Assembly (NCBI RefSeq): GCF_014191715.1
Contig: NZ_JACHWY010000001.1
Location: 558,001-622,000, forward strand
Origin: Litorivivens lipolytica
Lineage (GTDB): Bacteria > Pseudomonadota > Gammaproteobacteria > Pseudomonadales > Spongiibacteraceae
Direction of reading: 5' to 3'
Length of the DNA: 64,000 bases
In this document: positions 42,480 through 56,871 of the stretch, in pieces
How positions within the stretch are numbered: the first letter of the stretch is position 1
How the letters are laid out: each line of letters begins with the position of its first letter
Made by a program: the position numbers and the translations under genes
Notes under the pieces: model-generated
What the model saw: the letters and a program-made list of their open reading frames with translations, nothing else
What the model was told of the DNA's origin: nothing
Database searches by the model: none

Positions 42480-42555
42480 GCGGGAATAGCTCAGTTGGTA
42501 GAGCGCAACCTTGCCAAGGTTGAGGTCGCCGGTTCGAACCCGGTTTCCCGCTCCA
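42480..42555 (+). tRNA. glyW: tRNA-Gly (GCC anticodon)
   Basis: 76 bases with encoded CCA. Acceptor GCGGGAA/TTCCCGC, D-arm GCTC...GAGC, anticodon stem CAACC/GGTTG with loop TTGCCAA (anticodon GCC), T-arm GCCGG-TTCGAAC-CCGGT. The final CTCCA bases can also pair with TTTGGAG just downstream (42551-42557 with 42563-42569), a trailer hairpin that would need to be opened during 3' processing. Confidence 0.98.
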
Positions 42556-42572
42556 AACTCTCTTTGGAGAGA

Positions 42573-42595
42573 CCGGTTATCGAACCGGCGTACAC
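42573..42595 (+). repeat. Hairpin plus antisense copy of the tRNA-Cys T-arm side, unit 1
   Basis: CCGGTT-ATCG-AACCGG (42573-42588) is a perfect 6-bp hairpin. Bases 42579-42595, ATCGAACCGGCGTACAC, are the exact reverse complement of 42789-42805 in tRNA-Cys. TACACG (42591-42596) can also pair with CGTGTA (42613-42618). It starts the first of two tandem units between tRNA-Gly and tRNA-Cys. Confidence 0.85.
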
Positions 42596-42633
42596 GCTCT
42601 GGTTTTCTGGAACGTGTAGAAAAAATCGATAGA

Positions 42634-42673
42634 GGCATGTTGGCAGAGTGGTTATGCAGCGGACTGCAACTCC
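42634..42673 (+). pseudogene. Truncated tRNA-Cys copy (5' half)
   Basis: Starts GGCATGT where the intact gene has GGCGCGG. Then 33 bases (42641-42673) are identical to the D-arm and anticodon arm of the intact tRNA-Cys (42756-42788), including anticodon GCA. After that it diverges: no matching T-arm in place and no acceptor 3' strand complementary to GGCATGT. It cannot make a normal tRNA and is best read as a decayed duplicate. Confidence 0.8.
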
Positions 42674-42696
42674 AGCGCCAACGGCCAAAGAAAGAG

Positions 42697-42719
42697 CCGG
42701 TTATCGAACCGGCGTACAC
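42697..42719 (+). repeat. Hairpin plus antisense copy of the tRNA-Cys T-arm side, unit 2
   Basis: Second copy of the same block: hairpin CCGGTT-ATCG-AACCGG at 42697-42712, and the 17-mer complementary to tRNA-Cys at 42703-42719. It is followed by a TACAC-TTCTCG-GTGTA hairpin (42715-42730). Directly precedes the intact tRNA-Cys. Confidence 0.85.
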
Positions 42720-42748
42720 TTCTCGGTGTAGAACAAAATCGACTTGAA

Positions 42749-42822
42749 GGCGCGGTGGCAGAGTGGTTATGCAGCGGACTGCAACTCCGTGTACGCCGGT
42801 TCGATTCCGACCCGCGCCTCCA
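42749..42822 (+). tRNA. cysT: tRNA-Cys (GCA anticodon)
   Basis: 74 bases with encoded CCA. Acceptor GGCGCGG/CCGCGCC, anticodon loop CTGCAAC between GCGGA and TCCGT, discriminator T. The T-stem GCCGG/CCGAC has one C-A mismatch; from memory, pseudomonad tRNA-Cys shows the same, so this is not taken as a defect. The opposing GGDEF gene ends nine bases later, so there is no room for a terminator. Confidence 0.95.
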
Positions 42823-42831
42823 TTTCCCCTT

Positions 42832-44916
42832 TTATTCCTGCGCTCCACCTATCACAGATACTTGCCCAGACGCTTTTTTTACGAGCTCTGCAATGGACTC
42901 TCTGGATGTGGGTGCGTGCAAGAAATCACCCTGAGCGCTGCTACAACCGACTTCGCGTAACGCCTGCATTTCGAGTTCATTACTGACGCCAGCGCAGCTG
43001 ACCTCGAAATTAAATTCTCTTCCCAAGATTACAATGGTTTTCAGCAGGGTCTTTGCGTGCTCAGACGCCAGAGCTTGCTTAACAAAATCCGGTGAAAGCT
43101 TTACGCAATTTGCACGTGCATCAGACAGAGATTGTAGAGATGAGGAGTTGTCTACATAACTAATGATTCTACGTGTGCCGGTCTTTTCTAGCTGTTGCAG
43201 TGACTTCTTGGTTGACTCTTGCTGTATAGCGAAAACGCTGGCGGGTATTTCCAGTGCAAGGTTGTCGGGCGATATGCCTGTTTTCTCACAAAAGGCGCTA
43301 ATATCTGCTGGCTCCAGCGCTTCTAACTGCTCTCGGGTAAGTGGGATTGCTACTGGCGGAACCCGGGCCCCCTCGTTTCTCCAATACGCGGTATCCTCCA
43401 CTAAGGTTTCACCAATCTTGTCAATTAGAGCGTCGGCCGGAAGATTTGGCGCGGTCGCATCGTCAACATTGCCTTGGCTATCCAAACTTACCGGCAGACA
43501 AGTTGCGCCGACCAGGTTGCCGGATTTTAGGTCGAAACTGGGCAGATAGCGTATCGATATGTTGTTAAGATCGGCGCCGTTGTTGATAGGGTTCTTGACA
43601 GCCGATAAATGAGGTTTCGTAGCAAAGCAGTAAGGCTGCTGTGAGGATTTGGCTTGGTACATTGCGTCATCAGCGGCTTGGATCAGCTGTTGAGGCGTAT
43701 CCCCGTTATGGGGGTAACGACTGACACCAATGCTAACCTCAATGGAGAGACTTATGCGCCCCAGTACTACGGGCTTTTTCATGGCAGCTTGAATACGCTC
43801 GATCAGGAGCACGAGGTCGCTGCGCGTGCCGAAGTCGCGAACGATGGCTGCAAACTCGTCACCGCCAAGCCGCGCCGGAAGATCCGTTTCTCTCAAGCTT
43901 TTTTTCAAGCGCACCGCGAATTCACGCAGCAACAGATCCCCGGCTGCGTGCCCATAGGTATCGTTTATCGGTTTGAACTTATTAAGGTCGAAATAAAGTA
44001 GCGCGAAATAGCCATCTTGAGAGCGTTTATTTTGTTCGAGCGCAGTTTGTAACTGGTTGTCATAAAGCACGCGATTGGGAAGACCGGTTAATGCATCGGT
44101 GTGCGCCATTCGCTCCAGATGCAGCAGCCTCTGAAAGCCCACTTGCCGGTCGATCCAGGTGGCCAAAATACTGAGCCCCAAAGTAACGGCTGCAAAAATA
44201 CAAATGCCCAGCGCCAGAGTATTGTCGGAGAACTGTGAGCTCGGCACGTGGGTATTGGTTGTCAGAAAGAACTTGCTTGAGGCCATTGCCGTGTAGTGCA
44301 TTCCGGCAATCGACCCGCCAATCACCACGCCCGCAATCAGGTTCACTGCATTTTCAGGCATGCTTTTTGTGGCGCGAAGCTTTATACGCGTGGTTAGTGC
44401 TATTAGCGCGAGCAGATGGGCGACAACGATAGAAAGCACAAACAGAGCAAAGTCGTAGCGTAGTCCGGGCATGAGCATCGCTTCCATCCCGGTGTAGTGC
44501 ATCGTGCCTATGCCGGCGGCGAGTAATAGCGCGGCCATTTGCCGGTGGAAACCCTTTAGTTCGCTCTTGGTAATAAAGTGGAGGGCGGCCATGCTGGCGA
44601 GAAAAGCGGGGAAAACCGATATCAGAGTAAGACCGGCATCGTAATTCATGGCCGGATGGCCGGGCAGCTCGAAGGCCAGCATCCCGGTAAAGTGCATTGA
44701 CCATATACCGCACGCTAGTGCGACAGCTCCGCCTACGTGCCACCAGGCTTTAGTTGAGCGGTCGGGCGATGCGGTGATTCTGTCGGCAAGCGCGAGTACG
44801 GTGATACCGGCAAGCGCAGCTATTGCAACCGAGATCGCTACGAGTATCGGGTCGTAGGTGCCCAGAACCTGATTTCCGAGTGAAGAGTCTTCAAGGTTGA
44901 ATCGCCAAAAGTTCAT
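42832..44916 (-). CDS. Membrane MHYT-GGDEF protein with degenerate EAL domain
   Basis: About 694 residues. Seven or so membrane helices carry three MHYT motifs (MHFTG 74-78, MHYTG 139-143, MHYTA 206-210), the proposed copper/oxygen/NO-sensing unit. The GGDEF domain is intact: GGDEF 351-355, preceded by the inhibitory-site RETD 342-345, so it should make c-di-GMP. The last 240 residues follow the EAL fold but every key motif is lost: GATCLP for EALLR, YVDNSSS for DDFG, VKLS for LKID, CAGVS for EGVET; only QGDFLHAP recalls the end. The EAL part is therefore not a phosphodiesterase. ATG 44916 preferred over an upstream TTG. It separates tRNA-Cys from tRNA-Leu. Confidence 0.88.
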   Translation of the reverse strand: MNFWRFNLEDSSLGNQVLGTYDPILVAISVAIAALAGITVLALADRITASPDRSTKAWWHVGGAVALACGIWSMHFTGMLAFELPGHPAMNYDAGLTLISVFPAFLASMAALHFITKSELKGFHRQMAALLLAAGIGTMHYTGMEAMLMPGLRYDFALFVLSIVVAHLLALIALTTRIKLRATKSMPENAVNLIAGVVIGGSIAGMHYTAMASSKFFLTTNTHVPSSQFSDNTLALGICIFAAVTLGLSILATWIDRQVGFQRLLHLERMAHTDALTGLPNRVLYDNQLQTALEQNKRSQDGYFALLYFDLNKFKPINDTYGHAAGDLLLREFAVRLKKSLRETDLPARLGGDEFAAIVRDFGTRSDLVLLIERIQAAMKKPVVLGRISLSIEVSIGVSRYPHNGDTPQQLIQAADDAMYQAKSSQQPYCFATKPHLSAVKNPINNGADLNNISIRYLPSFDLKSGNLVGATCLPVSLDSQGNVDDATAPNLPADALIDKIGETLVEDTAYWRNEGARVPPVAIPLTREQLEALEPADISAFCEKTGISPDNLALEIPASVFAIQQESTKKSLQQLEKTGTRRIISYVDNSSSLQSLSDARANCVKLSPDFVKQALASEHAKTLLKTIVILGREFNFEVSCAGVSNELEMQALREVGCSSAQGDFLHAPTSRESIAELVKKASGQVSVIGGAQE

Positions 44917-45089
44917 AGTTTTCCACGTGTTGCGCGATGTTCCGTAGAGATACCGCAAGGTTTACAACTGCGAATCAGAGCGCTGAGGCGTTTATTCCAT
45001 AAAACTACAGCATAGTCCTTAAAATCGATTCTTTCCGGAAATCATTGCAACGCGAAAGACCATGAGTTTTTGCCAGCATCACACTTCGA

Positions 45090-45118
45090 TTGTAAAAGCG
45101 TGCGCAGTAAGCTAGTAT
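45090..45118 (+). promoter_or_regulatory. Candidate promoter for tRNA-Leu
   Basis: TTGTAA (45090-45095), 17 bases, TAGTAT (45113-45118), about 130 bases before tRNA-Leu in the 330-base gap between the MHYT gene and the tRNA. The -10 is good and the -35 moderate. The rest of this gap shows nothing recognisable apart from A/T-rich stretches that could hold the MHYT gene promoter. Confidence 0.35.
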
Positions 45119-45247
45119 TCTCCGCCTCCACTGCGCTACTTCAACTTAAGCGATTGAATTTATTGGATAAAGATCGATCGTTTTCAGCGTAATCCCTCAG
45201 GTTGAGCTCTTGCTTAATCTGGCGTCAGTAACGGCGCAGATCTTCAG

Positions 45248-45335
45248 GCCCGGGTGGTGGAATTGGTAGACACAGGAGACTTAAAATCTCCCGCCTATTG
45301 CTGGCGTGCCGGTTCGATTCCGGCCCCGGGCACCA
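45248..45335 (+). tRNA. leuZ: tRNA-Leu (UAA anticodon)
   Basis: 88 bases with encoded CCA and a long variable arm (CCGCCTATTGCTGGCGTG). Acceptor GCCCGGG/CCCGGGC, anticodon loop CTTAAAA, T-arm GCCGG-TTCGATT-CCGGC. In E. coli the tRNAs Gly, Cys and Leu(UAA) are contiguous behind pgsA; here this one lies 2.4 kb beyond tRNA-Cys. Confidence 0.98.
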
Positions 45336-48857: not shown

Positions 48858-49361
48858 ATGGTATTCGGTTCAAATCTCAGACAGATCAGGTTCAGGCAGA
48901 TCAGGTCTAAGACAGGTGCAGTCCGTCTAGCAGTCCTAGGGATTGTTGCCGTTAGCGGCCTGTTGATGGCCTGTCAGGTCACTTCAGATGCTGCCGCTAC
49001 TTCACAGTCATCGCAAGCGGCATCACGACCCGCGAAAAGCGATGCCGTTCCGCTCGCAAAACCTCATCGCAAACTAGGGCCTTTGCTGGCTTCAATGCCG
49101 CGCCAGGCGTTATTAGTCGAAGAAGCAAAAGCTGCGGGTTTGACGACGACAGAGGAGGGCTTGCTGGTGCAGGTGGCCTATGAGGGAGACGTTAACCCTC
49201 TTGAAGCATCGCTTAACGCTTTAGGTCTAACGGTTTTGCATCGTTACCCACGCTATCAGCGCCTTGATGTTGTGATTAGTAGTTACGCCGAGCTCGATGC
49301 GATCACGGGCCTCGGCAGTGTATTTCGCGTTCAGGCACTTCCAACGGCGATTACCCGATGA
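48858..49361 (+). CDS. Lipoprotein with a protease-prodomain-like module
   Basis: 167 residues. An unusually long basic N-region is followed by a hydrophobic segment and lipobox LLMAC (C39). An Ala/Ser/Gln-rich linker follows. Residues about 96-160 (VQVAYEGDVNPLEASLNALGL...RLDVVISSYAELDAITGLGSVFRVQ) align by eye with residues 74-132 of the next gene's product: V-x-G, L-x-ALG, a Tyr, V-x-V, LDA, L-x-x-V. That region of the neighbour lies just where protease prodomains lie. The stop overlaps the next start (ATGA). Suggested role: membrane-tethered chaperone or inhibitor of that protease; inference only. No family recognised. Confidence 0.6.
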   Translation: MVFGSNLRQIRFRQIRSKTGAVRLAVLGIVAVSGLLMACQVTSDAAATSQSSQAASRPAKSDAVPLAKPHRKLGPLLASMPRQALLVEEAKAAGLTTTEEGLLVQVAYEGDVNPLEASLNALGLTVLHRYPRYQRLDVVISSYAELDAITGLGSVFRVQALPTAITR

Positions 49362-51670
49362 CTTTGAGATGTCTTATTGGCACCTGTGGCGCGCTGATCA
49401 CTTCGCTCGCGCTCGCCGTTCCGGAGAACTATTCAGGCAACGTTCAATCCACGTCGCCGCACATCAGTCCAAAACTCACCCAAAATTCTTTGGCCGCTAA
49501 GCGTTCGCAGCTTGTAGCCCGTTTTGCGGCGCAGAGCTCAAGTATTGATGAGCGCTTTTTGGCCAGTGACTTCCCGCTGACGCTCGAAGTGCGGGGACGC
49601 ATTACATCGCAGTTGATTGCCAACCTTAAAGCTCTCGGTGTTAGCGTGGACTTTGCTTCCAGCCGCTATGGCAGTGCAACGGTCAGTGTGAGTGATGAAA
49701 ATCAACTCGATGCCTTGCTTAACCTGAGAGAGGTTGAGCAGATCGAGCCGCCACCGCCCTTTGTGCGACGTGCCGGGAGCGCGTTGAGCCGCGCGCCTGT
49801 TGCCTTGCGCAGCGAGGCGAGTGAGCTGGGCGGAGGTAGTGGCCAGATCATCGGGATCATTTCAGACAGCTTTGCCCGAACCAACGATGTGCGCGATGGT
49901 GATACCACGCCGCCTAGTGGCGAAGCTGGCAGTCTTCAAGGCAGTCGACCCCAGGATTCTGGGGACCTTCCATCGGTCGTCAATTTGCTGTTGGAGGGTG
50001 CAGTAGGAAGTACCGATGAAGGTGCGGCAATGGCCGAACTGGCCTTTGATATCGCGCCGGAGGCAGGTATTGCGTTCCATGCAGCTGGCAGATCATTAGC
50101 GGCTTTTGCCACTGCGATTGATACCTTGTGTTCTGAAAATCGCGCCACGGTTGTTGTGGATGATATCGGTTTTCTCAACGAGGCGTTCTATCAGGACGAT
50201 ATCGTTGCTCAGGCAGCTGCGCGTTGCGTGGCAGCAGGCATACCCTATGTTAGCTCTGTCGGGAATGATGGCGATCAGGGCTTTCGTAAAATTTACAGAG
50301 ACATTAATCCATCGACAGACGATCAGCCCTCGAGCTTCGTGCCAAGCGGAGATGATCTGCACGACTGGGGTACAGGAGACGGATTTCTTGCTGTGAACGT
50401 GCCGGCAGGAGAGCGGGTCTTTGTTATGTTGCAGTGGAATCAGCCCAATGCCTCGGTTCGCTCTGATAGGGGGGCGCAGATAGACCTCGATCTCTACGCG
50501 ACGCGGTCCGACAATGTAGCGGCCTTGAACCCCTCGCACCCTGACTTTGTCGCGCGCAGTATTGCTCAACAAGGTGTGACCGGAAATCCAGAGGGCGATG
50601 CCGGGGAGCTGCTGCAATTACAGGCTGATCAAGCCAATGACACCCTGTTTTATCTGGCGGTGGAGCACTACGCAGGCAGTCAGGATGACATCCCGCAGGC
50701 TCCTGGCGTACCGCTGGAGTTTCGCTTGCTGCTTGTGGGTTCTGTTGATTCTGCAGAGTATCCTTATAACGGCCCCACAGCTTGGGGACACGTCGCTGCA
50801 GCCGGTGTAATCAGCACGGCGGCTGTGGGGTGGTGGGAATCGCCTGCCTACGCGCCCTCGCAATTTGGTTCAGTCAATATCGACCCCCAGCCCTATACCT
50901 CACGCGGCGGGGTTTTAGAGATTCCGTTTAATACCGCCGGTGACTACGCGCCACAGCAGCGCATCGCGCCCACCGTGTCCGGGGTCGATGGCAATAACAA
51001 TACGTTCTTTGGTCAGGATTTTCAGTCAAATGCCCTGAGCGATTTTGGTGAGCCTGATGGCTTTCCGAACTTCTTTGGCACGTCGGCTGCGGCCCCGAAT
51101 GTGGCCGCCGTAATTGCTTTGCTTCGCGAGGTGGAAAGCAGCGCGACGCCTGTCTTGCTTACCGAAAGCCTGCAAGCGACAGCTATCGATGTTAATGGGA
51201 ACCGGGCGGCGCCGGGAGACGATGACGTTTCAGGCGCGGGTTTGGTTGATGCAGGTGCCGCGCTGACGTATCTGCGTAACAACCGCAACCCTGTTATAGG
51301 ACCACCCTTGGGTGGGTTCGGTGACGGTTCCGGCGGCCCCTGTTTTATCGCCACAGCCGCCTATGGCAGCCTTTGGCACCGTCAAGTGCAAGTGCTTCGC
51401 GAATTTCGCGATCAGGTATTGCAGACGACGGCTGTTGGGCGCTGGTTTATTGAGCGTTACTATGATTTCTCACCGGCAATTGCCGAGGTCATTGAACAAC
51501 ACGAGGGGCTCAAGTGGCTCGTGAGAATGGTGCTGGAGCCTGTTGTTTTCATGATTCGCTTTCCATTGCTGCTCGGCATTTTGCCTCTGCTACTCGGCTT
51601 GTGGTTGCTTAGGCTGGTTGCTCATCGGCATACTCAGGCGATGCTTTCCCTGATACAACAGAGACACTGA
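49358..51670 (+). CDS. Subtilase-like protein with Glu in place of catalytic His and CFI-box C-terminal anchor
   Basis: 770 residues. Signal peptide (1-20), then a prodomain-like module (about 72-134). The S8-type core has the Asp motif IGIISDSF (D170), an STDEGAAMAELAFDIAPEA block (D220-E221) where subtilases have HGTHVAG...APEA, the oxyanion motif VSSVGNDGD (N303) and the Ser motif FFGTSAAAPNVAAVIALL (S576). An insert of roughly 200 residues (beta-rich, 335-500) separates oxyanion and Ser motifs. From C662, CFIATAAYGS opens a CFI-box C-terminal domain with FRDQVL and ending in a membrane helix (about 732-755) and a basic tail. It is thus secreted and membrane-held. Activity may rest on Ser-Glu-Asp as in sedolisins (inference). 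Confidence 0.75.
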   Translation: MTLRCLIGTCGALITSLALAVPENYSGNVQSTSPHISPKLTQNSLAAKRSQLVARFAAQSSSIDERFLASDFPLTLEVRGRITSQLIANLKALGVSVDFASSRYGSATVSVSDENQLDALLNLREVEQIEPPPPFVRRAGSALSRAPVALRSEASELGGGSGQIIGIISDSFARTNDVRDGDTTPPSGEAGSLQGSRPQDSGDLPSVVNLLLEGAVGSTDEGAAMAELAFDIAPEAGIAFHAAGRSLAAFATAIDTLCSENRATVVVDDIGFLNEAFYQDDIVAQAAARCVAAGIPYVSSVGNDGDQGFRKIYRDINPSTDDQPSSFVPSGDDLHDWGTGDGFLAVNVPAGERVFVMLQWNQPNASVRSDRGAQIDLDLYATRSDNVAALNPSHPDFVARSIAQQGVTGNPEGDAGELLQLQADQANDTLFYLAVEHYAGSQDDIPQAPGVPLEFRLLLVGSVDSAEYPYNGPTAWGHVAAAGVISTAAVGWWESPAYAPSQFGSVNIDPQPYTSRGGVLEIPFNTAGDYAPQQRIAPTVSGVDGNNNTFFGQDFQSNALSDFGEPDGFPNFFGTSAAAPNVAAVIALLREVESSATPVLLTESLQATAIDVNGNRAAPGDDDVSGAGLVDAGAALTYLRNNRNPVIGPPLGGFGDGSGGPCFIATAAYGSLWHRQVQVLREFRDQVLQTTAVGRWFIERYYDFSPAIAEVIEQHEGLKWLVRMVLEPVVFMIRFPLLLGILPLLLGLWLLRLVAHRHTQAMLSLIQQRH

Positions 51671-53016
51671 TGACTAGCTTGCGCCGACGCACCTTACTGA
51701 AACAAACTTTTCTTGCAGCCGCCGCTACCACACCCGCGGCGCGCAGCTTGAGCGCCTGTCTGGAGGTCAGTAGCCATCAGCAGATGGCTTTGCCGACGGG
51801 CCCCCTCTGGAATATCGGTTCTCTGCAGCCAGTAAACGGTTTGGGGCTATCGTTGGCAAAAGGCTGCGAGGCGCGATTGCTGGCGGTCGCGGGCGATCGG
51901 GTGGTAACGCCCGGTGGCGTGAGCGACCGGAGTGATTATTCCTGGCATACCTATCCGGATGGCGGGGCGGTGTTTGCCCGTACCGAAGGGGGCTGGGTCT
52001 ATACCTCCAATTCTGAAGTTCCGATGGTGCCCTTAGGCGGCTGCGGCGCGATCAGCTTTAATAAAGAAGGCGTGGTCGATAGCGCCTATTCTATTCTCAG
52101 TGGTACAACGCAGAATTGTGCTGGTGGTACCACGCCTTGGCAGACCTGGATTTCCTGTGAAGAATCACGCGATGGCCAGTGCTTTGAATGCGATCCCTTC
52201 GCGCCCGGTCAGGGGCAGGCCAAACCCGCGCTGGGTATTTTCGCGCATGAAGCCTTTGCCCTCGACGAACGCAGGGCGACTGCTTACCTGACCGAAGATA
52301 CCCGCGACGGCCGATTTTATCGCTGGGTCGCGGACCCGGAAGACAGGCTCGACAACGGTCGATTACGGCTCGAAAAAGGTCGGCTTCAGGTTATGAATAT
52401 TGCGGGCTATGCGGATGACTGCTATCCCGAGAGTGACGCGCTGGTAAGGGGGCAGCTGCCCGTATCCTGGGTAGACTTATCATCGCCGGAACTGCGTCAG
52501 GATAAACATCGCGGTCGTTTGCGCCGAAAAGGGAAAGCGGTTCCGGGCACAACCTTTGCGGGCGGTGAAGGGCTTTGGCAGTACACATTACCGGCGTCCG
52601 TGGCGCGAACACTGCAGCCCAAGGGCGGCAAGGCTCCGGATTCTCTGATCTTCTGGACGACCAAATATGACAACCGGGTCTGGTGTCTGGATGTGGCTAA
52701 TCAAGCCGTTGAACTGATCTTTGATAATTCACAGATTGATGAAGCCATCATGAGCGTCGACAACCTGACAGTCAGCCCCTGGGGCGATATTCTAGTGGCT
52801 GAAGACCCGTCAAAAGACGTTGCCCGTCTCATCATCCTGAACCCCAATCAGGGTGCCAAGACCTTGCTCGAGATCCATCACCCCGGTTCAGAGATATGCG
52901 GCCCGGCGTTCTCACCTGACGGTAGCCGCCTTTATTTCAGTTCCCAGCGCTATCGCAAAGGCGGTGCGACGTACGAAGTAATACTTCCGAAGGAACTGCT
53001 TCCCACTGCCGCGTGA
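51670..53016 (+). CDS. PhoX/DUF839-family secreted phosphatase-like protein
   Basis: 448 residues. The Tat signal peptide LRRRTLLKQTF is followed by a hydrophobic Ala-rich segment. The PhoX-family hallmark GGTTPWQTWISCEES (about 154-168) and the metal-site regions HEAFALD, TEDTRDGRFYRWV and DNLTVSPWGDILVAED are present, on a six-bladed propeller plan. Some relatives are Ca/Fe-dependent alkaline phosphatases; many DUF839 proteins are uncharacterised. Its ATG shares a base with the protease stop, so it is the third gene of that operon. How a phosphatase-like protein would relate to the protease is unknown. Confidence 0.8.
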   Translation: MTSLRRRTLLKQTFLAAAATTPAARSLSACLEVSSHQQMALPTGPLWNIGSLQPVNGLGLSLAKGCEARLLAVAGDRVVTPGGVSDRSDYSWHTYPDGGAVFARTEGGWVYTSNSEVPMVPLGGCGAISFNKEGVVDSAYSILSGTTQNCAGGTTPWQTWISCEESRDGQCFECDPFAPGQGQAKPALGIFAHEAFALDERRATAYLTEDTRDGRFYRWVADPEDRLDNGRLRLEKGRLQVMNIAGYADDCYPESDALVRGQLPVSWVDLSSPELRQDKHRGRLRRKGKAVPGTTFAGGEGLWQYTLPASVARTLQPKGGKAPDSLIFWTTKYDNRVWCLDVANQAVELIFDNSQIDEAIMSVDNLTVSPWGDILVAEDPSKDVARLIILNPNQGAKTLLEIHHPGSEICGPAFSPDGSRLYFSSQRYRKGGATYEVILPKELLPTAA

Positions 53017-54184: not shown

Positions 54185-54709
54185 ATGGCTGAAATTGCTT
54201 TTACGCTTAATGGTCGCGAGCAGCGCGTTGATGTAGAACCGGACACCCCGTTACTGTGGGTTGTTCGGGAACAGTTCGAGCTGACCGGCACCAAGTTCGG
54301 TTGTGGCAAGGGCCTGTGCGGCGCCTGCACCGTGCATATGGATGGCTACGCCATACGCAGCTGTAGTTTCCCCGTCTCAGCCGCTGCCGGTCGCGACATT
54401 CGAACCATTGAAGGCATTTCGCCCGATATCACCCAGTTACACCCGGTACAGCAGGTCTGGCTGGAAAACAGCGTCCCCCAATGCGGCTACTGCCAGTCGG
54501 GCCAGATCATGGCGGCGGTTGCGCTGCTGGAGCGAAACAACAACCCCTCGGATGAAGAAATCAACTCAGCCATGAGCAATATCTGTCGCTGTGGCACCTA
54601 TCCCCGCATTCGCACTGCTGTGAAGCAAGCGGCTAGTCTGGTGCGTCAGGACGGCGCGGTGTCGATTGTTGATCCAGTGGTTACCAAAGCGCAGGAGGTG
54701 TCCGCATGA
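54185..54709 (+). CDS. (2Fe-2S) subunit of a molybdenum hydroxylase (IorA-like)
   Basis: 174 residues. The plant-type cluster ligands are C40, C45, C48 and C60 ([14 protein letters not shown]); the second cluster has C100, C103, C134 and C136 (CGYCQSGQ and CRCGTYPR). The order is that of the small subunit of isoquinoline 1-oxidoreductase-type enzymes, with no FAD subunit nearby. It passes electrons from the molybdenum site to an acceptor such as a cytochrome. The gene overlaps the large subunit by four bases (ATGA). The 270-base region upstream contains only small stems. Confidence 0.9.
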
Positions 54710-56871
54710 GCCTCAGTCGTCGAGATTTTTTCAAACGTAGTGCAGCCCTTGGCGGTGGTGTTGCCATCGGTATTCACCTCACCGGTTGCGGCGGAGAGCC
54801 GCCGTATCCGGGTACCACAGCCGATGAGCTGCGCCCCAACGCCTTTCTTCAGGTACGCCCGGACGGCGTGGTCGTGTTCCAGTTGCCACGCGCGGAAATG
54901 GGGCAGGGGGTTTATACCGGTCTGACGACCCTGGCGGCGGAAGAGCTGAATTTGCCTGCCACCGATATTGTAGTGGAGCACGCTTATTACCATCCGGATT
55001 TCAGAGACCCTGAATTTCAGATGATGATGACCGGCGGCAGCGTGTCTCTGCGCAATAACTTCACGGCCATAAGGCAGGCTGGCGCGAATCTTCGCGAGCT
55101 GATGCGACAGGCGGCTGCCAAACAATGGGGTGGCGGTACTGACATGCTGAGCGTTGAAAACGGCATGGTTTACAACGCAAACGGTGACAGTTTCAGTTTT
55201 GCGGAATTGGTTGAAACCGCGCGCAATCTGACACCACCGGAAGCCGCACCACTGAAATCTGCAGAGGATTTCACCCAGATTGGTCGCGATGGTGTGCGAC
55301 TCGATGCGCTGGCGAAGGTTACCGGCACGGCAACTTTCGGTATCGACTGTAATTTGCCCGGTTCGAAGACGGCGGTTATGCGTCGCTGCCCGCACTTGGG
55401 CGGTCGAGTGAAATCCTTCGATGACAGTGGCGCAAAAGCGATTAAAGGGGTTTCGGCAATTTTTGAGACCAATGGCGGTGTTGCCGTGGTCGCCGACGGT
55501 TACTGGGCGGCGCGCAAAGCCGCTGACGCGCTTGATATCATCTGGGACAAAGGTCCACTGGCTGGTCTTGATGAAAAGGGTTTGCGTGCCCATCACACCG
55601 CGCTACTCAAAGAAGAAGGGCGAAATATTAGTGAAGAGGGTGACGCGGCGCTAGCAACGGGCGAGCGCTTCGAGGTGACCTATCAGGCCCCGATGCTATC
55701 CCATAGCCCTATGGAGCCACCCAATGCACTGGTCAATGTAGTTGCTGACCGCGTTGAGATATGGACTGGCACCCAGGTGCCGGATACCGTCATTGGCGTG
55801 GTGGCGGCAGCCCTAGAACGGCCTCGCGAGCAGATTGTTGTGCACAACCAGATGCTCGGGGGCGGCTTTGGTCGCCGCCTGGTGCCGGATTACATCGTGG
55901 AAGCGGCACGTATATCCGAAAAAACCGGAACACCGATCAAAATGGTCTGGAGTCGGGAAGACGACATCCAGCACGACTATTATCGACCAGCCGCGACAAC
56001 AGTTATGGCGGCAACTCTTGATAAAGGCAAGGTCACCAGTATCACGGCGAAAACGGTGGTGCCGAGTATCATGTCCCAGCTGATGCCCATGTTTGCAGCC
56101 GCCTCCATGCCGGAATGGTTGCCACCAGCGATCCCGCGCAGTTTGGGCGGATTGCTAAAACATGTGGATTCCACCATGGCGGAAGGTATCAGTCACACCG
56201 ATTACCGTTTCCCCTATATGAAAGTGGATGCAGTACACGATGACACGCCCATTCCTGTCGGTTTTTGGCGCTCGGTCGGGCACTCCCAGAACGCATTTTT
56301 TACCGAGAGTTTTATCGACGAACTAGCTCATCGGGTTGGTGAAGACCCGGTAGCGTTCCGTATGCAGCATATGCCTACCGACTCCAAGCGCTATGGCGTG
56401 TTGAAAATGGCTGCGGAGAAGGCGTCCTGGGGGCAAACCGAGCCGGGCCAGTATCAAGGCGTCGCGGCGCATGAGAGTTTTCACACTTCGGTCGCACAGG
56501 TCGTGACCGCTTCCGTGGAAAACGGCGCTATTCGCGTTCACAAGGTCGTCTGCGTGGTTGATTGCGGATTGGCAGTCAATCCCGATGTGGTCAAATCCCA
56601 GATGGAAAGCGGTATTGTTTTTGGCTTGACGGCAGCCTTAAAGAGCGGCATTACTCTGGAAGATGGCCGGGTTATGCAGAGCAACTTCCACGATTACCCG
56701 ATGCTCACCCTGGCGGAAACGCCGGAAATCGAGATTCATATCATGCCGTCCCAGGAAGCGCCGACCGGCGTGGGCGAACCCGGGTTGCCACCCGTCGCTC
56801 CCGCTCTGGCGAACGCCGTATTTGCCGCCACAGGCCAGCGCCTGCGCGACTTGCCGCTGAAACTGGCCTAA
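54706..56871 (+). CDS. Molybdopterin-binding large subunit of a molybdenum hydroxylase (IorB-like)
   Basis: 721 residues. The twin-arginine signal [15 protein letters not shown] sends the cofactor-loaded complex to the periplasm; a Cys (LTGCGGE) follows. [24 protein letters not shown], the [23 protein letters not shown] block and the C-terminal [19 protein letters not shown] with the catalytic Glu are all conserved in this group. It hydroxylates an aldehyde or N-heterocycle with water as oxygen source. True substrate unknown; relatives act on isoquinoline, nicotinate or aldehydes. Pterin maturation genes are elsewhere. Confidence 0.9.

Follow-up and report, generated by a model that had tools for sequence, protein, structure and literature searches.

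Free-standing proteins with the fold of a subtilase prodomain are known to act in trans: POIA1, which is I9/propeptide-like and consists of a single prodomain fold, inhibits subtilase in this way. To our knowledge, POIA1-like inhibitors neither carry a lipid anchor nor share an operon with a homologous cis copy; the protein described here resembles them in being a predicted prodomain fold made in trans, but it apparently carries a lipid anchor and is paired with such a copy. Subtilase prodomains fold and inhibit their own enzyme, and according to the available text of PMC3567191, they can also do so in trans: the CspB prodomain supplied in trans restores folding, its C-terminal residues block the active site, and CspB has both a stable prodomain complex and a jellyroll domain. 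Two further systems work most like the one reported here but are laid out differently. In Aeromonas sobria, the subtilase ASP is accompanied by an adjacent, separately encoded protein, ORF2, which is needed for the maturation of ASP and also inhibits it (available text of PMC5638518). In Treponema denticola, the dentilisin operon encodes PrcB, PrcA, and PrtP, and the small lipoprotein PrcB is required for, and interacts with, the outer-membrane subtilase (available text of PMC8167434).

The locus analyzed here lies in a window of 64,000 nucleotides from Litorivivens lipolytica (contig NZ_JACHWY010000001.1, positions 558,001 to 622,000). Three genes follow one another on the plus strand: a 167-residue lipoprotein, P0001 (48858..49361), a 770-residue subtilase, P0002 (49358..51670), and a 448-residue PhoX-family protein, P0003 (51670..53016). 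As the initial annotation had observed, they are joined by overlaps, and the coordinates agree: the stop codon of P0001 (49359-49361) overlaps the ATG of P0002 at 49358 (ATGA), and the TGA of P0002 (51668-51670) has one base in common with the ATG of P0003 at 51670 (TGATG). Compared by description, not by sequence, the first two genes resemble ASP and ORF2 in combining a subtilase with an adjacent, separately encoded partner, and resemble dentilisin in that a small lipoprotein is encoded first in an operon with a subtilase. However, P0002 keeps a cis prodomain, whereas ASP is called propeptide-deficient in the title of a paper cited in PMC5638518; the trans copy here is an upstream lipoprotein homologous to that prodomain, whereas ORF2 lies downstream, and the available text makes no mention of lipid anchoring of ORF2. 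For PrcB, the available text of PMC8167434 states no prodomain relation, and it describes PrtP as acylated. The remark in the initial annotation that no described system with this layout was known must be qualified, since a separate chaperone (ORF2) and a lipoprotein partner (PrcB) had each been described. A literature search, conducted mostly without subscription papers, found no description combining a trans prodomain with a lipoprotein in the titles or abstract openings of the papers listed. Because ASP/ORF2 and PrcB are alike in their working and different in layout, and because ASP lacks a propeptide, we regard the present system as a variant of trans-acting prodomains.

The link between lipoprotein and protease had been proposed from an alignment by eye of a module of about 60 residues with the protease prodomain, and it is upheld by formal comparison. 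BLASTP of this single pair places residues 115-167 of P0001 on residues 86-138 of P0002 (E 1e-4, 34% over 53 residues). Alignment with hhalign of a 13-lipoprotein profile with a 32-prodomain profile (the latter without L015, L017, L025, L027, L028, L029, L033, L048, and exact duplicates) gave a probability of 97.7 and an E of 1.8e-12 over 70 columns, covering P0001 residues 96-166; the score was 69.3, whereas none of 200 column shuffles scored above 14.9. When built from lipoprotein modules only, the profile also matched the cis prodomains of the window (3e-9) and of many relatives, among them L100 (4e-13), L011 (2e-10), and L062 (8e-10); those of the Zhongshania and Spongiibacter loci were unmatched by it. 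Judged by sequence, residues of about 96-166 of P0001 are thus homologous to P0002's own prodomain (residues about 70-137; 49565..49768, plus strand). Together with the lipobox at C39, the profile match supports the proposal that one prodomain is made in cis and a homologous copy is made separately with a lipobox. Neither Pfam nor NCBIfam contains a family that matches P0001 at E up to 1, no Pfam family was common to more than one of 22 P0001 homologues at E up to 0.1, and Inhibitor_I9 (PF05922) was unmatched in the same 22 at that threshold. Against PDB sequences, the lipoprotein profile gave only two chance-level matches (E 0.37 and 0.95). Its probability against the I9 prodomain of P0004, a neighboring canonical subtilase (see below), was 0.11, which is uninformative since the cis prodomain profile scored low as well (0.29).

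Structure predictions place the two modules in the same fold class. The AlphaFold2 model of P0001 has strands at 102-108, 125-130, 135-140, and 155-160 and helices at 112-121 and 143-150 (block pLDDT of 89-96 over residues 91-160 and of 91-96 over 101-160), and that of the P0002 prodomain has strands at 74-80, 96-101, 106-111, and 126-130 and helices at 84-92 and 114-121 (block pLDDT of 75-89). Compared by the order of elements in these predicted models, both run strand-helix-strand-strand-helix-strand, that is, as a prodomain-like beta-alpha-beta-beta-alpha-beta module. In a Foldseek search with the P0001 model, PDB ranks 1 to 6, which include EpiP, a Tk-propeptide complex, and CspB, were all S8 propeptide or protease chains (57-91 columns, probability 0.89-1.00), followed at rank 7 by an RNA-binding domain (probability 0.63); the best E was 0.038, and none was <0.001. 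Rather than adopting different folds, the two modules therefore share a predicted element order, and the lipoprotein module is predicted to have the subtilase prodomain fold.

We propose that the lipoprotein is a membrane-tethered prodomain that acts in trans to cap or fold its partner, a reading that we consider about evenly balanced between right and wrong. On this view, P0001 duplicates the prodomain as a separate, membrane-fixed protein. Its docking site would most likely be the face of the catalytic domain that the cis prodomain also uses, and after cleavage of the cis prodomain it would hold or cap the enzyme at the envelope, with the C-terminal tail of P0001 sitting in the active-site cleft; it may assist folding at the same time. 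Of these roles, capping or restraining an enzyme that has lost its cis prodomain appears likeliest, with help in folding next. The tail after the last strand is 7 residues long in P0001 and ranges from 2 residues (L013) to 20 (L012) among its relatives; with only two residues in L013, inhibition by a tail in the cleft cannot apply everywhere. Since the lipoprotein is encoded first and the genes overlap in the window, coupled synthesis is likely. The same overlap and gene order would also suit an external folding chaperone, in which case the lipoprotein would fold or stabilize the protease as ORF2 does for ASP and inhibition would be secondary. The chaperone activity of the CspB prodomain in trans and the dependence of mature ASP on ORF2, as given in the available texts of PMC3567191 and PMC5638518, both agree with this. 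Nevertheless, P0002, unlike the propeptide-deficient ASP, retains a prodomain of its own, and the protease persists in two Spongiibacter genomes whose lipoprotein gene is interrupted or absent, so that we consider a primarily chaperoning lipoprotein unlikely, if still a serious contender.

These two genomes came to light when the proteins of 390 genomes of the order were searched for the protease, which was present in 19 (18 of the window's family and 1 other). An intact lipoprotein gene lies just upstream in 16 of the 18 family genomes with the protease; one of the other two has a stopped copy and one has none. The former is Spongiibacter marinus (L041, the same region as L002), where the lipoprotein gene contains an in-frame stop, and the latter is S. 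pelagi (L046, as L008), which has a Glu-type protease (see below) without the lipoprotein gene. A stopped gene in one species and none in another indicate that the lipoprotein is not indispensable. The stopped S. marinus gene is at 3900-4760 of L002, and a near relative, L024, has it intact; the S. pelagi protease (L008, L046) is without the CFI box and ends in a Gly-rich stretch plus a helix. Lipoprotein and protease are also paired in L001 and L003, by name of the same family, and in eight loci outside it (L012, L014, L016, L018, L051, L086, L100, and L082, the last with a protease cut by the contig end).

Wider sampling gave a similar picture, although the order, class, and phylum genome samples partly overlap. 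At E up to 0.01, a lipoprotein profile found matches in 13 of the 369 genomes sampled from the class. Six of these have the lipoprotein beside a Glu-type protease (G000, G597, G653, G543, G647, and G565, where only a truncated protease start, cut before the active site, is present), three matches are a protease's own prodomain (G643, G751, and G748), and four cover the N-terminal end only (G400, G527, G603, and G636). For the phylum, a wider profile (E up to 0.001) matched 4 of 398 genomes. One is the window's own genome and another, G982, has the pair; the match in G906 sits at a contig end, and G927 by our reading has another kind of lipoprotein. No free-standing copy of the lipoprotein was thus found in the class and phylum samples; far from occurring mostly without the protease, it was found only beside one of this type, bar the contig-end match in G906. 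The Glu-type proteases of Sumerlaeota, Acidimicrobiia, Planctomycetota, and several gammaproteobacteria had no lipoprotein in the flank examined, and we call them unpaired in the sense that no second module match was found there. One of the same class, in L052, has a CFI box, and no upstream lipoprotein was found.

A lipobox-like Cys preceded by Ala, Gly, or Ser is present in 20 of the 22 lipoproteins (in L043 by a second Cys), and L044 and L045 are without a good one; in P0001, it takes the form L-M-A-C39, as initially annotated. By the usual rule, lipoproteins without an Asp directly after the lipobox Cys are sent to the outer membrane. None of these Cys residues is followed by Asp, and with residue 40 of P0001 likewise not Asp, its membrane is probably the outer one. 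The description of the protease as membrane-anchored is plausible, too, given a CFI_box_CTERM match (NF041770; P0002 residues 662-730; 51341..51547, plus strand; 97.2 bits against a cut-off of 40, the sole match in its own genome) followed by a predicted C-terminal hydrophobic helix. Such a tail (CFI box or Gly-rich stretch, plus helix) was scored by eye in all 23 paired proteases with a readable end, which are not independent (18 of the 23 come from one family), and in 5 of 27 unpaired ones. Left out of this tally were L002 (stopped lipoprotein gene), L019, L054, L082, L086, and L100 (cut ends), and repeat gene copies, and a short terminal hydrophobic stretch in L062 was not counted as a tail. 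A search for rhombosortase was uninformative, as the match in the window's own genome was below the cut-off and the family was also matched in 14 of 14 control genomes. Both partners appear to be membrane-bound when paired, which favors action at the envelope. The frequency of the lipobox, and the precedent of a small dentilisin lipoprotein that is encoded first and interacts with PrtP, could alternatively mean that the module serves only to keep the mature enzyme within a membrane complex, the role proposed for PrcB (available text of PMC8167434). However, a second anchor would be redundant on proteases that already have a membrane tail, unless that tail is removed, and the same text reports PrcB as being without homologues outside oral treponemes. 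We find a pure anchor or scaffold improbable.

Whatever the lipoprotein does, its gene is under purifying selection: dN/dS was 0.06-0.10 in four comparisons (with one locus used twice, and with dS >1 and saturated in two), close to the 0.06-0.09 of the protease in the three comparisons that could be computed. The trans modules also resemble their own cis partners. The mean for trans against own cis module was 45.6, compared with 31.8 for shuffled partners, and 0 of 10,000 permutations was as high. The own cis module ranked 1 to 4 of 25 in 14 of the 25 rows and 9 to 25 in the other 11, seven of which are Zhongshania-type. In a tree of 42 modules (69 columns; without L004, L031, L033, and L036), the label changes between cis and trans four times, three of them forced by supported branches, and the cis and trans modules are sisters in L086 (100/99) and L082 (95/82). 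The four changes disfavor a single ancient duplication behind all of the lipoproteins. The tree suggests instead that the prodomain was duplicated repeatedly into lipoprotein genes, though 69 columns are not proof, and gene conversion or matching coevolution could give the same pattern. If our proposal of a tethered prodomain is true, then a prodomain would have become an independent regulator tethered to a membrane, with the cis copy still in place, and these loci would offer natural cis/trans pairs with which to ask what makes a prodomain specific.

The partner enzyme is unusual in its own right. P0002 is predicted to have the subtilisin fold (VIA-align Z of 29.1, rmsd 4.1 Å over 312 for 3whi_B, and Z of 27.6, 2.5 Å over 248 for 7am4), with the POIA1-subtilisin entry 1v5i (by title) among its VIA-align matches. 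Its top two Foldseek matches in the PDB are CspA and CspC-CspA of the clostridial Csp subtilases, and kumamolisin-As comes at rank 44. We know of no lipoprotein copy of the prodomain for clostridial Csp subtilases. Sedolisins are absent among the 50 VIA-align matches listed, which is not evidence of absence. In sequence, the Pfam S8 match is confined to residues 523-625 (PF00082, 27.5 bits against a cut-off of 21.8) and uses only profile positions 189-285 of 288; all 20 members of the protease alignment A1 match this family (E up to 0.001). Among the best 60 matches of the protease profile to PDB sequences, the top stretches are likewise C-terminal, around the nucleophile Ser. The P0002 model is weak just before that residue (pLDDT of <50 over 546-573 and a block value of 63 over 571-580).

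The initial annotation called this subtilase atypical, which was right and, if anything, understated. By alignment, P0002 is without the S8 Asp-His-Ser triad. Glu221-Gly222 (50018..50023, this and the following features all on the plus strand) falls on subtilisin His64-Gly65, at the start of a predicted helix, and Ser169 falls on Asp32, within Ser169-Asp170-Ser171 (49862..49870), a matching strand end with the acid one residue off. Asp268-Asp269 (50159..50164) occupies the position of subtilisin residues 124-125, Asn303 (50264..50266) that of the oxyanion Asn155, and Ser576 (51083..51085), within GTSAAAP, that of the nucleophile Ser221. Of 60 distinct sequences, 55 have Glu at position 221, four have His, and one has a gap. 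At position 169, Ser occurs in 55 sequences and Asp in the four His rows, with one gap. Within the 55 Glu rows, position 170 carries Asp 53 times and Asn twice, and position 225 (base+4) is Met in 54 and Leu in 1. Asp-Asp is found at 268-269 in 56 of the 60 rows, with His-Ser or His-Thr in the four His rows; Asn303 is kept in all 60, and Ser576 in 56 of the 57 rows with a residue. The 60 sequences, reduced from 96 open reading frames with near-identical locus copies left out, were chosen by profile and not by motif, but the active-site profile was built from Glu-type sequences, and 27 loci had partly been found by the pattern DEGAAMAE, both of which introduce bias; the other searches used Glu-type queries without the pattern, and one with a His-type query was also run. 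Two histidines invariant in A1, His335 and His478, were considered as a replacement base and discarded, as they are kept in only 55 and 51 of the 60 rows.

The four His-bearing relatives (L068, L105, L106, and L107) keep the canonical site, which marks the change of catalytic site as a coupled one. Sedolisins (S53) also combine a subtilisin-like fold with Glu in place of His, and they have an acid at base+4 and Asp as the oxyanion residue (available text of PMC11593635). P0002 resembles them in having, by alignment, Glu at the His position, where it would be the putative base; it differs at base+4, which is Met or Leu in the Glu rows, and in keeping Asn in the oxyanion hole, so that neither core type of PMC11593635 fits. 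The Glu-type catalytic core may be a third type, with putative activity. That the His and the usual Asp position are both replaced could also mean that the protease is a pseudoprotease and that the pair forms a binding or signaling complex, a reading that overlaps the others; the first Foldseek matches, CspA and CspC-CspA, fit it in that CspC is called a pseudoprotease in its NCBIfam name. Yet Ser (56/57), the oxyanion Asn (60/60), Glu, and Asp-Asp are retained across phyla, and the changes at Glu, the shifted Asp, and Asp-Asp go hand in hand, which would be expected if the site works. On balance, we think a dead enzyme rather unlikely. Our broadest proposal joins two parts, namely a third subtilisin-fold core (Glu base, Asp-Asp at 124-125, shifted Asp, and Asn oxyanion) present in several phyla and a membrane-tethered spare prodomain, arising repeatedly by duplication into a lipoprotein gene, that would restrain a surface-bound protease at the envelope; we offer the conjunction tentatively, as somewhat less probable than its failure. 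If this is right, the Glu-type site would be a test of how the subtilisin fold can change its catalytic base, a step that could be retraced by mutagenesis, given that the four His-bearing relatives keep the canonical set. Our literature search, again mostly without subscription papers, found no description of Glu-type subtilases in the titles or abstract openings of the papers listed, and the active site may merit a stronger claim of novelty if activity is shown.

In the window, the genes flanking the pair offer other candidate targets for the lipoprotein, such as a divergent canonical subtilase or PhoX. The former, P0004 (47367-48671, minus strand), has an S8 domain and an I9 prodomain and lies 186 bases upstream of the operon, near enough to be considered. 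However, P0004 has homologues (E up to 1e-30) in 2 of 56 genomes, and PhoX accompanies the pair in the window and L001 alone; the neighbor that recurs throughout is the Glu-type protease, and we regard action on another target as very improbable. The initial annotation had correctly identified the third gene as PhoX-like (Pfam PhoX, E 7.9e-36), and P0003 has an RR signal motif, seen by eye only, which makes its Tat export putative. Its inclusion in a three-gene unit was not borne out: no locus other than the window and L001 (63% identity) has PhoX directly after the protease, and we therefore dropped PhoX as a third member of the system and treat it as a lineage-specific neighbor outside the conserved pair. 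The overlap between lipoprotein and protease genes is shared by the window, L001, and five Zhongshania loci, and a gap of 3-29 bases separates the two genes in five other relatives measured. A P0004 paralogue, 48% identical, is encoded elsewhere in the genome. Further out in the window, tRNA-Gly, tRNA-Cys, and tRNA-Leu genes surround a GGDEF-type protein (the latter recognized by eye) at 42480-45335, and a pair resembling a 2Fe-2S subunit and a large molybdenum-hydroxylase subunit, also recognized by eye, is at 54185-56871; a similar pair lies downstream of the protease in L013.
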